A stretch of DNA of 64,000 nt, taken from Zygnema cylindricum. Lineage: Eukaryota; Streptophyta; Zygnematophyceae; Zygnematales; Zygnemataceae. Positions within the stretch are counted from its first letter, which is position 1, and each line of letters starts with the position of its first letter. Below are positions 24,524 to 50,591 of this stretch, piece after piece. The notes below the pieces were generated by a model, which was given only the letters and a program-made list of their open reading frames with translations, was not told where the DNA came from and ran no database searches. The position numbers and the translations under genes were made by a program. The DNA lies in assembly GCA_037447655.1 (NCBI GenBank), contig JBBHKE010002059.1:1-64000 (forward strand), written 5' to 3'.

Positions 24524-25100
24524 ATTGTGGCACTTTCATTTAAAGTCATATTCAACCTCACGGCTACACCATTTTGTTCAAGATTTTTTGAAACTGTCTT
24601 TTGATGTTGTACTCCATCTTCTCTCAAAAAAATCTCAAACTAGTTTGAGGTATACTCTCCCCCATTATCACTCTTCACTCTCTTGATTGGGGTTTCACGG
24701 AGTTTCTCACTCCATGCCTTGTATTGCTTAAATCATTCTGGTGCTTTTGATTTATTTTTCAAAAAATTTACTTTTGAATACCGAGACCAATCATCAATGA
24801 TGGTCATCATAAACCTCTTACCTCCGGGTGACGACACTTTTGCTAGTCCTAAGATATTTGTGTGTATCAAATCTAGAACTCTTTCTCTTTTATAAGGTGG
24901 TTGCTTTTGGGAAGGGTAACTTGTGTGCCATACCTTGAGCACACCACTACAGTCACTTAGATTCTCACTTCCTCCAAACTTAATCCCTTCCACTACTCCC
25001 ATCTTTTTCATTTCTTTTAACTTATCTAAGTGCACATGCCCAAGCCTCTTATGCCACAACATTATATCATGAACACCAGCATAATAAAGTTTTTCTTTTC
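24524..25100 (-). pseudogene. Ty1/copia integrase remnant
   Basis: The minus strand encodes MLWHKRLGHVHLDKL (GAG-pre-integrase zinc region), ERVLDLIHTNILGLAKVSSPGG (catalytic Asp region, reading HTN in place of HSD/HTD), MMTIIDDWSRYSKVNFLK, then in another frame NLEQNGVAVRLNMTLNESAT with the integrase Glu position altered. The C-terminal part is lost at the LTR junction. Confidence 0.8.
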
Positions 25101-25127
25101 ATTGCGTAAAATCAGCCTAAACATCCA

Positions 25128-25547
25128 TTAGCTACCCTTTTTTGCAGTGAAATAAACTTCTTCTTCAAAGTTAGCAATAAATACTCCTTTCTTAGTGTTA
25201 GTTTCAAAACCCTTATCATCTAACACAGATGTTGAGATGAGATTTTTTTTCAACTCAGGAATAAACAACACATCAGAGAATGTCAATATGGATGTTTTTC
25301 CTTCCAGTAATACTTCTAGACCTACCGATCCTACCAAAGTGGTAGTGACTACCCTCTTATCTTGATACTCTTTCTCTACAGTGGGAATCTTTCTTATTTT
25401 TGAGAACATGAGTTTATTCTTACACATGTACATAGAAGCACCCAAATCCATAATCCAGCCTGCTTCACATGTCAATCCTCCGAAAGCACATTTTTGCTTT
25501 TGTGGAATTTCGACCTCGGTTTTCACCTCCATCTCCTCACCCAACAA
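25128..25547 (-). pseudogene. Ty1/copia protease remnant
   Basis: The 139-codon frame contains GWIMDLGASMYMCKNKLMFS, the copia protease active site, where the family has D-S/T-G-A; here it reads DLGA. It continues with VLFIPELKKNLISTSVLDDKGF, a conserved stretch of this region in copia elements. The zinc knuckle and gag lie to the right. Confidence 0.8.
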
Positions 25548-25851
25548 GAGCTCATCATCCTAGGACTCCTCAGGAACCTGCGTCACAAGTGCCTTCTTCT
25601 TCCCTTTGGGAGGTCCACTCGTCTGCCTTTTCATTTAGTCGAAGCTCAGTTAGCTTAGAACACTCCGCCATGTAGTGCCCTGGTTTCTTACAAAAGTGAC
25701 AAAGCCCCTTAGAAACCCTCGGTTTGGACTCACCGGACTAATTGTTTTGTCCCCCTCCTCCATAACTTCCGAAAGGTTTTTTTGAGTCCCTATTCCTCCA
25801 ATCGGTCTCGGCAGTCAAGGCTTGTCCACTCTTTCCTTCCCTTCGGATCTT
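25548..25851 (-). pseudogene. copia gag C-terminal part with CCHC zinc knuckle
   Basis: The minus strand reads GLCHFCKKPGHYMAECSKL near 25650-25715, an intact CX2CX4HX4C knuckle, with stops on either side. Gag is split here by the LTR inserted at 25857. Confidence 0.75.
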
Positions 25852-30544: not shown

Positions 30545-30962
30545 TTCTAGTCTAATTTAAATTTCATTTTTAATCCACACTTTTCTTTGCATTATTTTAA
30601 CTTGGGAGAAGGCACCGGTTTTGTCATCATATCAGCTACCATTTCCTCATCAGATCTATATACAAGATTCACTATTTTATTCTCAACTTTTTCTCTTACA
30701 AAACTTAATCTTATGTCCATATGTTTAGCCTTAAAATGATGTTTTGGATTGGCTGCAATTGCAATGGCAGCTTGATTATCACAAAACACTTCATGCACTC
30801 CCTCCTTGATATACCCCAGTTCTTGCATAAAAGATTTGACCCACATCAACTCTTTCACAGCACAACAAGAGGCCATGTACTCAGCCTCCATAGTAGATTG
30901 AGCAACCACCTTTTGTTGCTTACTGCTCCAACAGCAAGCCCCTTCCCCAACATACAACACAT
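30545..30962 (-). pseudogene. Ty1/copia RNase H, cut by assembly gap
   Basis: From the gap leftwards the minus strand encodes VLYVGEGACCWSSKQQKVVA, STMEAEYMASCCAVKELMWVK, EVFCDNQAAIAIAANPKHHF and MVADMMTKPVPSPK. The Glu of EAEYM and Asp of CDN are intact and no stop occurs up to about 30592, making it the best RNase H end in the window. The N-terminal half, with the first Asp, is lost at the run of N. Confidence 0.88.
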
Positions 30963-30972
30963 NNNNNNNNNN
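30963..30972. other. assembly gap (10 N)
   Basis: Ten N bases. The retroelement coding order is interrupted here: RNase H lies left, protease right, and RT plus integrase are missing. Confidence 1.
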
Positions 30973-31273
30973 AGACACAATCTACTATTCCCAAAATTTT
31001 GATCGTGATCCTTTTCTAAGAAACGTCGATCAAAACTCCTCCTTCAAATAAAGTGACGGCATTTCCCATCGGTTCCTTACAAATCCGACTAAAAATCGTT
31101 ACTTTTCTTCTTTGAAATAATACGGTCACAAGTACTATAATACAACACCGTAGTCAACGAAGTTGTACACGTAAATCTATTTAATATTCTATACTTTTTC
31201 TACCCTCATCACCTTCCCTAAGTCAAACCTCTTTCACTCGTAGACTCACTGCCATCACCCACACGAGTTGCAG
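30973..31273. other. exact mirror image (reversed, not complemented) of 31310-31610
   Basis: Read right to left without complementing, these 301 bases are identical to 31310-31610, which I checked line by line. It begins at the first base after the N gap. It has no coding sense as it stands, whereas its mirror partner encodes copia protease. It is most likely a data-processing artefact rather than DNA present in the organism. Confidence 0.97.
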
Positions 31274-31870
31274 TAGTGGTTGTTTTTGGGAAGGGTAACC
31301 TGTGTGCCTGACGTTGAGCACACCCACTACCGTCACTCAGATGCTCACTTTCTCCAAACTGAATCCCTTCCACTACTCCCATCTTTTTCATATCTTATAA
31401 TTTATCTAAATGCACATGTTGAAGCAACTGATGCCACAACATAATATCATGAACACTGGCATAATAAAGTTTCTTCTTTTCATTGCTAAAAATCAGCCTA
31501 AACATTCCTTGGCTACCCTTTACGGCAGTGAAATAAACTTCCTCCTCAAAACTAGCTGCAAAGAATCTTTTCCTAGTGCTAGTTTTAAAACCCTTATCAT
31601 CTAACACAGATGTTGAGATGAGATTTATGTTCAACTCAAGGATAAACAATCTATCAGAGAATGTAACTATGGGTGTTTTTCCTTCCACTAATACTTTCAT
31701 ATCTACTGATTTCACTAAAGTAGTAGTGACTACCCTCCCATCCCAATACTCTTTCTCTACGGTGGGAATCTTTCTCATTTTAGTGAATATGTGTTTATCC
31801 TTAGACATGTGTATAAATGCTCTTGAATCCACAATCCAACCTCCTTCAACTGTCAATCCCCTAAAGGCAC
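31274..31870 (-). pseudogene. Ty1/copia protease and GAG-pre-integrase remnant
   Basis: The 153-codon minus frame (31395-31856) reads GGWIVDSRAFIHMSKDKHIF, the protease active site with Arg for the Gly of DSGA, then RLFILELNINLISTSVLDDKGF and, at the integrase start, IMLWHQLLQHVHLDKL, where a His position of the zinc region is retained. The frame continues degraded to about 31274. RT and the rest of integrase are missing. Confidence 0.82.
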
Positions 31871-32214
31871 ATTTCTATTTTTGTGGAATTTCGACCTTGG
31901 TTTTCACCTCCATCTGCTTATCCAACAAAAGCTAATCGTCCTCAGGTTCCTCCTCAAGTACTTGTGTCACAAGGTCCTTGTTCTTTCCTTTCGTAGGTCT
32001 AATTTGCCCATTTTTCAACCAAAGATTAGTTGGTTTAGAGCAGTGAGTCATGCATTGCCTTGATTTTTTTTTAAAATGACACAATCTTTGTGAAACCCTT
32101 GGTCCAGACTCATTGGACTGATTTTTGTGTTTCTTCCTCCTCTATAGCCTCCAAACGGTTTCCTTGAATCCTTCTTCCTCCAATCGGTCCTGGCTGCCTA
32201 CTCTAACCTCCTCT
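31871..32214 (-). pseudogene. copia gag C-terminal part, zinc knuckle degraded
   Basis: The minus strand corresponds to the zinc-knuckle segment at 25548-25851. Here the motif reads LCHFKKKSRQCMTHC, so the second Cys and the His are changed and zinc binding is unlikely. Stops occur near 31934 and elsewhere. Confidence 0.65.
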
Positions 32215-32904
32215 CTAGATCTCTATCGTATTCTCTCGGACGAGAATCATCCCTACTACCGAGTTCCAGGTCCACCAAGAATCCAATAGGTCTTGTACAC
32301 AATTAACTATATTCTCATAATTATCGGGTAACTTCATGAGTAGACAGTTAACCTTCAACTTTTCAGTTTCTACCTGTCCAGCACTCTCTAACTTAATAAA
32401 AAGTGTCGCAAGCTCATTACATAAATTTAGTATCTTCCCCTTTTTGTATGAATATGCATCAATTTTACAATTTGCCAACTGTTGTTGCTGAATTGTACCA
32501 ATTCGGTACATTTCTATGAGTGTTACCCATAGATCCGTTGCCCTTTCCACTTGCAAATGAGGAGATGCAAGCCCTTGAGTGAGATGGTGGATAATGAAAT
32601 GCGTTGCCGCCATATTACCATAGTATCATGTGTCAATATCATTCTCATCGTCCCTTGGAATAGTTGACATGAATGCTGACCCGGTTGCTATCGGTGTTGC
32701 TATCGGTGTGATTGTCTCCCCTTTTTTCCCCTTTTCCATCTCAATGCTTTCCCTATCCTTATTCTCCTCGAGTGGAGCTGGATTTGCTTTTCTGGTAAAC
32801 TTGGTCCTTGCAAACACTAAAGGAATGCCCACACTGGATGGACGCCTCACTCGTCCACTCACTATGCCCCAATACCTTTTTTCGCAGAGAGCTCCTGTCT
32901 TCAT
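32215..32904 (-). pseudogene. Ty1/copia gag
   Basis: Two nearly contiguous frames cover most of gag: 32904-32626 (WGIVSGRVRRPSSVGIPLVF, GSAFMSTIPRDDENDIDT) and 32613-32215 (MAATHFIIHHLTQGLASPHL, ATDLWVTLIEMYRIGTIQQQ, VNCLLMKLPDNYENIVNCVQ). The LTQGLASP and LPDNYENIV stretches fit UBN2/retrotran_gag domains. A stop near 32623 separates them. The protein would build the particle. Confidence 0.82.
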
Positions 32905-34116
32905 ACTCTCCTAGTATATAAAGCCATTCTGTTAAAGATGGGCACCCTAGAGGGTGGGCCCATAACCTACAACCTCGAGACCTCCATTGGTCCTCAGAGT
33001 AGGCAGCTCACTAGAAGCCCCTAGGATAGCCTTTACCCCTTTGAGTTTGAACAAGAGTGATCGTCACTTGACACCAGACTCAACTAATTTTACCCCTGTG
33101 AAGACAAGACTCCTTGGAGTATACTGCAAAAAGAATCACTTAATTTGCTCCCTTAAGCAATCAACTATTGGTGGTCAAAGTTGACCTTTTGTACAGATGC
33201 ATTCTTAGAGAGAGGCGTCTACCTTAGAATTGTTTAAGTCCTATTCCCCTCTTTGAACCCCTTTCTACTAAAGTACGACACCAATCAATTGACTATGCGG
33301 TACGAAAAGGTTCTGGTGTCGGAGTACTTTCTGTACGACCATTGTACGACATGGCCGAAAAGTGCACGCCCGTCATATCCGGACTCGTTCTGGTGTACTC
33401 TGGAAATGCCTTGAGCCAATATGATAACGCCACGTGTAATTGGTGAGGCGGAAATCGAAAGCCCCCAAAACGGCCATTTCGTGATGTCGGCTCGTACCAT
33501 GGCCGTCCAATCTAATCGGCTTTTAATATAAGTAGGTGAAACCATTGTTCGCATCGATTGTTTCGTGCGGTATTTATCGTACAACGTAATACATGCTATA
33601 GGAAGTTAGTTCTATCAATTAAATGAATTTCGCTACTTGTACATGTTTATGTTATTGTCGCACCCTATATTAATTTCAGAACTGGTTGTAGACTATAGGA
33701 CCAAGCTAACGGCTACTGACTACTCTCACGGACAGTTGGTACCAGGATCAAATCCTGGTTTCAGCAGCCATTTTGGTAAGTCTGACCTGATTTGCTCTTT
33801 TTCTCCTTAGGCTTCTTTGTCTCCTTAGGAAGCCTAGGCAGCCATGGCTCTAACTCCCTCTCCAGTCTTTAGTGACTGCCACAAGTGTGGGGACTTGAGA
33901 GTGGGGACTTGAGAGTGGAGTAAAGTGTGGGGACTTGAGAGTGGGGACTTGAGAGTGGAGTAAGAGGCAGGCTGCCTTTGCTTCTTTATTGTTTTATTAG
34001 TGTGGGGACTTCAGAGCGGAGTGAGAGGCAGGCTGCTTTTGCTTCTTTATTGTTTTATTTTACACGAATCAGACCTAGAAAATACCGAACATAAATCATT
34101 AATTTCTGCACTTTGA
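32905..34116 (-). mobile_element. copia leader and 5' LTR-A
   Basis: On the minus strand the LTR starts TGCAGAAATTAATG at 34116 and runs to about 33080, followed by the leader into gag. GTAC cluster at 33262-33345, tRNA-like segment near 33690-33770. At 33890-34030 a ~40-bp unit (GTGTGGGGACTTGAGAG) is duplicated in tandem, expanding the hairpin region. Paired with the 3' LTR at 29570-30532, but the two are too diverged to be a recent insertion. Confidence 0.72.
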
Positions 34117-35464: not shown

Positions 35465-36616
35465 TCACACTATTTGTCGGACAACGATAGAGTCCAGCAG
35501 AAGACCCGATTTCCAATTACATTCTTCTTTCAAATGTACCTTAAACTCTAACAAAATCAATTCATCTCCTCCGTTTCCCTCTCCCTCCACTTCCACTTCT
35601 CCCACTTCCACTTCTTGCCACACTATTTCTCTGTCCATATCAATGTCTTCCGTCCCAGGGAAATCGCTAGCCAACGCCGCCCGAATATCTTCAGTCGCCT
35701 GCCTAATTCTCCGAGAAGTTCTCTCACTCTCTCCTTTTTGCTCCATCTCCCTCTCCCACTCTCTCTCCCACTCTCTCTCCCGCTCTCTCTCCCGCTCTCT
35801 CTCTCGCTCTCTCTCCCGCTCTCTCTCTGTCCCGCCTCTGGAGTTCCCACGTGACAAGAAAGCCCTCAACCGATTGAACCGCATTTTAAGCCGGTTCTTG
35901 AATCTTCCGGAGTGATAAACCTCTCTAATTCCCTCTCCCTCCTCTTCCTCCTCCACCCCATAATCATAAAGATCAACAAAATTCTGGACGTTCCCTGATG
36001 GGATTCCAAAAGTTACATTTTTTGTCGTTACGTTCCCATTTTCAAAAGTTGTATCCATAGTTAAATCGAAGGAATTATAGAGCCCAGCGTCCGGATCAAC
36101 AGCCATTCGCCAGAAAACTTTGTATTTTCCAGGTGCCACGTGGCATTTGATATCTCCACCAGCTTCCAGCCAACAGACCTTAATAAGTGCCGGAGTCTTT
36201 TCAAAAATGGCGCCGGAAACTCTCTCTTTTTTTGTCCAGTAGCGCGCGTCATCTCCCCACACGATCCACAGATTCTCCGCTGCTGCCACGTGGACTACCA
36301 AAAAACCTGTCAGCCAATCAGATTGCCAGAAAAGCTTTTTGTCGGCGCTGAAAATTCCTTTTTTGAATTGGCGCAAAAGTTCGATGGAATTCATATTCTT
36401 CAGAAGCTCCGGATTGGCCGAATGGCTGCAGAACCAATCAGAACGGGCAGGAAGAAATTTTTTCCAGACTACATCTGACGTGGCAGCTTCTCGAAAGAAT
36501 TTGGAGACGGTTGCGAGTCGAGAGACATCGGAGACGGAGGTGAGGGAGAGAATGGTCTCGAGGGAGGAGAGGTCGAGGGAGTCGAAGGAAGAGAGGGCGG
36601 AAAGGGAGTGAGACAT
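35465..36616 (-). CDS. F-box/PP2-like protein
   Basis: An uninterrupted 383-residue frame from ATG (36614-36616) to TGA. Residues ~13-57 form an F-box (ETILSLTSVSDVSRLATVSK, VWKKFLP), which binds Skp1 in SCF ubiquitin ligases. Residues ~95-220 plus 331-383 form a PP2 (phloem protein 2) domain: FWRMAVDPDAGLYNSFDL and the C-terminal WQEVEVGEVEVEGE ... WKSGLLLDSIVVR, a lectin-like substrate-binding part in family members. Between them sits a ~105-residue charged insert: an acidic run (~222-229), a basic stretch, and an ER/WERE repeat at 264-290 made by a CT/GA microsatellite. No intron is needed. It is the only host-type gene in the window. Expression is unproven. Confidence 0.85.
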   Translation of the reverse strand: MSHSLSALSSFDSLDLSSLETILSLTSVSDVSRLATVSKFFREAATSDVVWKKFLPARSDWFCSHSANPELLKNMNSIELLRQFKKGIFSADKKLFWQSDWLTGFLVVHVAAAENLWIVWGDDARYWTKKERVSGAIFEKTPALIKVCWLEAGGDIKCHVAPGKYKVFWRMAVDPDAGLYNSFDLTMDTTFENGNVTTKNVTFGIPSGNVQNFVDLYDYGVEEEEEGEGIREVYHSGRFKNRLKMRFNRLRAFLSRGNSRGGTEREREREREREREREREREWEREWEREMEQKGESERTSRRIRQATEDIRAALASDFPGTEDIDMDREIVWQEVEVGEVEVEGEGNGGDELILLEFKVHLKEECNWKSGLLLDSIVVRQIV

Positions 36617-49198: not shown

Positions 49199-49230
<32 letters not shown>

Positions 49231-49433
49231 GTTTAATTATCCGTACGATTATCCCTACGATTTTTCGTATGGTTTTCCGTACTCTGCCTGTACGGACACC
49301 CATTTTTTGCGATATATATCGCGATAATTTATGTTGGTCCCGGTACGATATATCAAGGAAACTGCTCGATCGATATTCGATATATCGAATATCGAGATTA
49401 TCGCGATATGAAATTACCCGATACCCAACACTA
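48978..49433. mobile_element. hAT-like MITE with C29/G31 arms
   Basis: Ends TAGTGTTGGGTATCG and CGATACCCAACACTA, flanked by a perfect 8-bp duplication CTAATACC (48970-48977 and 49434-49441). Centre: 29 C (49163-49191), GCTCAGT, 31 G (49199-49229). It is inserted into the minisatellite. Confidence 0.92.
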
Positions 49434-50497: not shown

Positions 50498-50532
<35 letters not shown>

Positions 50533-50546
50533 ACTGAGCGCTCAGT

Positions 50547-50591
<45 letters not shown>

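Follow-up and report, generated by a model that had tools for sequence, protein, structure and literature searches.

The window analysed here is a stretch of 64,000 nucleotides from the alga Zygnema cylindricum (assembly GCA_037447655.1, contig JBBHKE010002059.1, positions 1 to 64,000) whose only run of N, exactly 10 N at 30963-30972, interrupts copia-type retrotransposon sequence. The contig to the right of this gap carries the 5' part of a copia element, gag to pol, on the minus strand (31275-33000), as established by BLAST against a second copy in the window and seven copies elsewhere in the genome (L002-L008; L001-L048 are labels of stretches fetched from the assembly) and by Pfam matches to Retrotran_gag_2 in ORF 32215-32613(-) and to Pol_BBD in ORF 31395-31856(-), where residues 7-90 correspond to about 31587-31838. 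The contig to the left carries the 3' part of a copia-type pol, likewise on the minus strand (30592-30962). This sequence keeps its normal orientation up to the gap, as it matches other copies at 70-74% identity in that orientation with the best match reaching the last base before the gap, and its reversed form had no match in the sampled loci. A comparison of 30592-30962 with Pfam returned 0 families, and we take this segment to be RNase H-like from its motif. A search of the window against Rfam gave no match.

Immediately to the right of the gap lies an exact mirror repeat, in which bases 30973-31274 are the reverse, without complementing, of bases 31309-31610 (302 of 302 positions) around a 34-base spacer at 31275-31308. 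The first-pass annotation had described a 301-base mirror with a 36-base spacer; all 301 of those positions do match, but the maximal mirror is one base longer on each arm and the spacer correspondingly shorter. It had also placed the start of the mirrored arm at the first base past the 10 N, which is where the arm is directly observed to begin. Both arms are composed of mixed sequence with all four bases, and neither is a polypurine-polypyrimidine tract. The window mirror thus shares its symmetry with the natural mirror repeats that form H-DNA, but those are polypurine-polypyrimidine tracts, according to PMC9171763, while this one is 302 bases of mixed sequence. The axis of the mirror falls inside a ten-base natural mirror, TGGGAAGGGT at 31287-31296, which is located within the genuine spacer and which we attribute to chance.

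Comparison with normal copies of the element separates the parts of this structure by origin. The right-hand contig is 80% identical to the window copy at 24897-25807 with the alignment ending at 31276, and homology to the seven copies elsewhere ends at 31276 in six of them and at 31282 in L003, so these normal copies lack the anomaly. Since homology ends at about 31276, the spacer is genuine contig sequence and the foreign part runs from 31274 toward the gap. Consistent with this, 32 of the 34 spacer bases (copia pol, minus strand, the first genuine bases of the right-hand contig) match one normal copy forward at 97%, and the far arm at 31309-31610, also copia pol on the minus strand, matches the 39 other best copies scored at 87-88% in the forward direction. 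The near-gap arm as written had no forward match to normal copies among the sampled loci, and when reversed it matches many normal copies from those loci at about 88%. It was previously proposed that the right arm is genuine, encodes copia protease and has a homologue at 24.9-25.3 kb. The copia pol origin and the homologue stand, but the protease assignment needs correcting, as Pol_BBD covers about 31587-31838 and most of the far arm is therefore downstream of the Pol_BBD match; that downstream part has its homologous counterpart in the gag-pre-integrase region at 24.7-25.1 kb. The window mirror is almost certainly a gap-filling artefact, with the near-gap arm at 30973-31274 representing an overhang that was written reversed without complementing and that is not genomic as it stands.

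The background frequency of such mirrors was measured in a control sample of 22 stretches (the window and L009-L029; 264,321 bases, partly chosen for copia content), each of which was scanned within itself. Only three exact mirrors of at least 18 bases with non-trivial composition were recovered: the one in the window, one in L018, and a 24-base echo in which the left arm of the window is mirrored in the related copy at 25.2 kb. Mirrors are so rare in these sampled bases that chance is excluded as the source of the window mirror. The sample holds two N runs and both are mirrored, while its four arbitrarily placed stretches (L026-L029, two of them with copia relatives) contain no N runs and no mirrors. 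Additionally, when L001-L029 and the window were reversed and compared by BLAST with their own original sequences, 170 matches resulted, and among those longer than 60 bases all involve the gap region of the window or of L018 except two. These two are overlapping, imperfect self-mirror matches at L010:8039-8132, with 78-82% identity over about 80 bases in a stretch without an N run, and perhaps reflect a simple repeat.

The L018 gap was met while sampling 10-kb stretches around 14 other copia copies, where it is the sole other gap. It consists of 10 N at positions 669-678 and is followed directly by a perfect 242-base mirror with a spacer of 149 bases. When L018:679-1311 was compared with the assembly (40 scored of 3910 candidates), it matched itself and 39 other copies, and all 39 match only from base 243-245, that is, past the 242-base arm. 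Normal copies compared with either location lack the mirrored segment.

The first-pass annotation had suggested looking for reversed matches beside N runs across the assembly, and the mirrored arm of the window was used as a DNA query against it (352,776,454 bases in 2689 contigs). Apart from itself, the query recovered a further 18 places, all 19 candidates having been scored, at identities of 67-86% and E values from 6.5e-53 to 9.9e-8. Once fetched, every one of the 18 places was observed to have a mirror to the right of an N run, and in 15 no base separates the two. At L040 (570-1096) the mirror reaches the gap with one mismatch in 527 bases, the only mismatched arm among those followed to the gap, and at L045 and L047 the mirrors are truncated where the fetched stretch stops, such that 15 and 33 gap-side bases, respectively, could not be compared. 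As these 18 cases come from one query, they constitute a sample of one copia region; together with L018 they establish that the anomaly recurs at other gaps in unrelated places of the same assembly. The gap measures exactly 10 N in 13 of the 20 cases (the window, L018 and the 18 matches), and the remaining seven have N runs of 373 or more that extend beyond the fetched stretch. Mirrors also abut the gap from the opposite side in three of 13 visible left flanks, a count in which L046-L048 are represented by left flanks of just 335-359 bases. These left-edge mirrors measure 32 bases at L032:456-784, a backwards LTR stretch, 69 bases at L038:727-795 and 342 bases at L043:529-870.

This recurrence bears on the possibility that the window contains a genuine biological mirror repeat, produced by a process that copies DNA in parallel orientation. 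The sole point in its favour is that the bases do stand in the assembly. The mirror lies to the right of an N run at all 20 of 20 places, however, and is shown to reach the gap at 18 of them, and the 22 sampled stretches contain no other exact, non-repetitive mirror of at least 18 bases save the 24-base echo. Furthermore, the arms are exact while differing from their matched normal copies by about 4-20%, so a biological origin would need 20 recent events, all of them at contig ends. We regard this explanation as next to impossible.

The origin of arms and spacers was examined by comparing 19 arms (from the window, L018 and L030-L043, both sides where present) against normal copies with the gap regions of the window and L018 masked. 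The left arm of L038 has no relative; in all 18 others, which make up the testable arms, normal copies are matched by the near-gap arm only when it is reversed and by the far arm only as it is written. The spacer matches forward in 11 arms and reversed in seven (L032 left, L034, L035, L036, L039, L040 and L041). In at least one normal copy each of these seven reversed spacers directly adjoins the far arm, with no bases between them; this support comes from one pair of matches for L036, one for L041 and 21-33 pairs for each of the other five. Between 51 and 268 pairs were compared per case with segment ends projected without allowing for indels, and the rest of the pairs, which often came from separate copies located on the same stretch, gave different distances. 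The reversed spacers of L039 and L041 are short, at 18 and 31 bases. The full span L of arm, spacer and arm is 137-787 bases in the 17 arms tabulated, with overlaps of 32-400; L040 is the longest unit, with L of about 1702 and, assuming that its arm extends to the gap despite the mismatch, 527 bases of overlap. A fixed span, which was suggested by the first two cases (638 in the window and 633 in L018), was dropped on account of these values.

These observations are best explained by an error in gap filling. A piece of length L, which for the window would be 638 bases, would share 336 bases with the right-hand contig at its left edge and overhang that edge by 302 bases into the gap, and it is this overhang that should have been added to the contig. 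Instead the program would have used the piece turned round without complementing and taken the first 302 bases of that copy, with the outcome that the far end of the piece, backwards, was joined to the contig edge. The rest of the gap would then have been written as 10 N, a number that probably represents a minimum gap size. Reversing without complementing and complementing without reversing are the same operation viewed from opposite strands. The pieces would be reads or local contigs, and one program step is probably responsible for all cases. Such a model predicts two classes of spacer. When the overhang is shorter than L/2 the spacer would be contig sequence, and when it is longer than L/2 the middle would be backwards sequence from beyond the contig edge. 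Both classes occur, with 11 forward and seven backwards spacers. Seven of the 18 testable arms have a backwards piece that includes, in reversed order, bases lying past the edge of the contig. As the simplest reading of the window, it had already been put forward that scaffolding or gap filling reversed a sequence without complementing it, and the recurrence at 18 of 18 places and the overhang geometry both support that proposal. The mismatch in L040 (1 in 527) suggests a read or some other sequence distinct from the contig as the source of the backwards copy. A reversal of the contig in place was also considered, and it was dropped because of this mismatch and because seven spacers consist of backwards bases that lie outside the contig. 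The simple overhang model does not explain the asymmetry between right-edge mirrors, found at 18 of 18 query matches, and left-edge mirrors, found at 3 of 13 visible flanks.

Two technical alternatives start from an inverted repeat. In one, a fold-back chimera formed during library construction, or a missed hairpin adapter, would have generated an inverted complemented repeat that software subsequently turned into a mirror. Such chimeras have a similar geometry of arm, spacer and arm, but in seven of seven cases with a long overhang the backwards spacer is what follows the contig sequence in a normal copy, an arrangement that a fold-back would not produce, and a single software step accounts for everything that the chimera was invoked to explain. 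We consider this origin highly improbable. In the second, a slip in colour-space decoding would have turned an inverted repeat into a mirror. With two-base encoding a sequence looks alike whether it is reversed or reverse complemented, and in colour space the mirror is a palindrome as this encoding requires; roughly half of the other spacer positions match as well, the central ones owing to the ten-base natural mirror. A real inverted repeat would still be needed at every gap, however, and the spacer is not fully palindromic in colours, which leaves a decoding origin unsupported and, in our estimation, just as improbable as the chimera.

The preferred reading, an overhang written backwards at the gap edge, places the window within a general class of assembly error, the gap-edge misassembly that arises from partial gap filling or contig extension. 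The shared feature is the presence of wrong bases immediately beside an N run in a contig that otherwise looks sound, and here the affected gaps are located in high-copy retrotransposons. The usual gap-edge error involves the wrong repeat copy or a reverse-complement orientation, whereas in the present case the sequence is reversed without complementing. A search of titles and abstract openings in the literature found no description of a gap-filling error that is backwards and uncomplemented; passages of PMC9635638 concern ordinary reverse complementing and have no bearing on this error. We judge the chances to be evenly balanced that this is a systematic, undescribed software error that has left perhaps hundreds of such segments in this assembly and similar ones in assemblies made with the same program, where "hundreds" is guesswork based on the two N runs, each with a mirror, in a sample of 264,321 bases that was selected in part for copia content. 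If so, backwards segments in other assemblies would pose as orphan DNA or as false unique sequence. Because standard aligners compare just the forward strand and its reverse complement, backwards DNA looks unique and without homologues. Such segments slip past ordinary checks, and a scan for exact reverse-not-complement matches beside N runs would provide a simple test of assembly quality. The artefact reading also removes the claim that the window contains impossible DNA.

Two further features of the window were noted. Long G or C homopolymers occur near each other at 50499-50589 and 49199-49231, with runs of up to 43 G and 34 C, and possibly represent a simple repeat or noise from the sequencing or the assembly. 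Additionally, ORF 35465-36616(-), of 383 amino acids, contains a Phloem protein 2 domain, which together with the copia elements makes a plant genome likely, and an F-box-like match that falls just under the Pfam cut-off.
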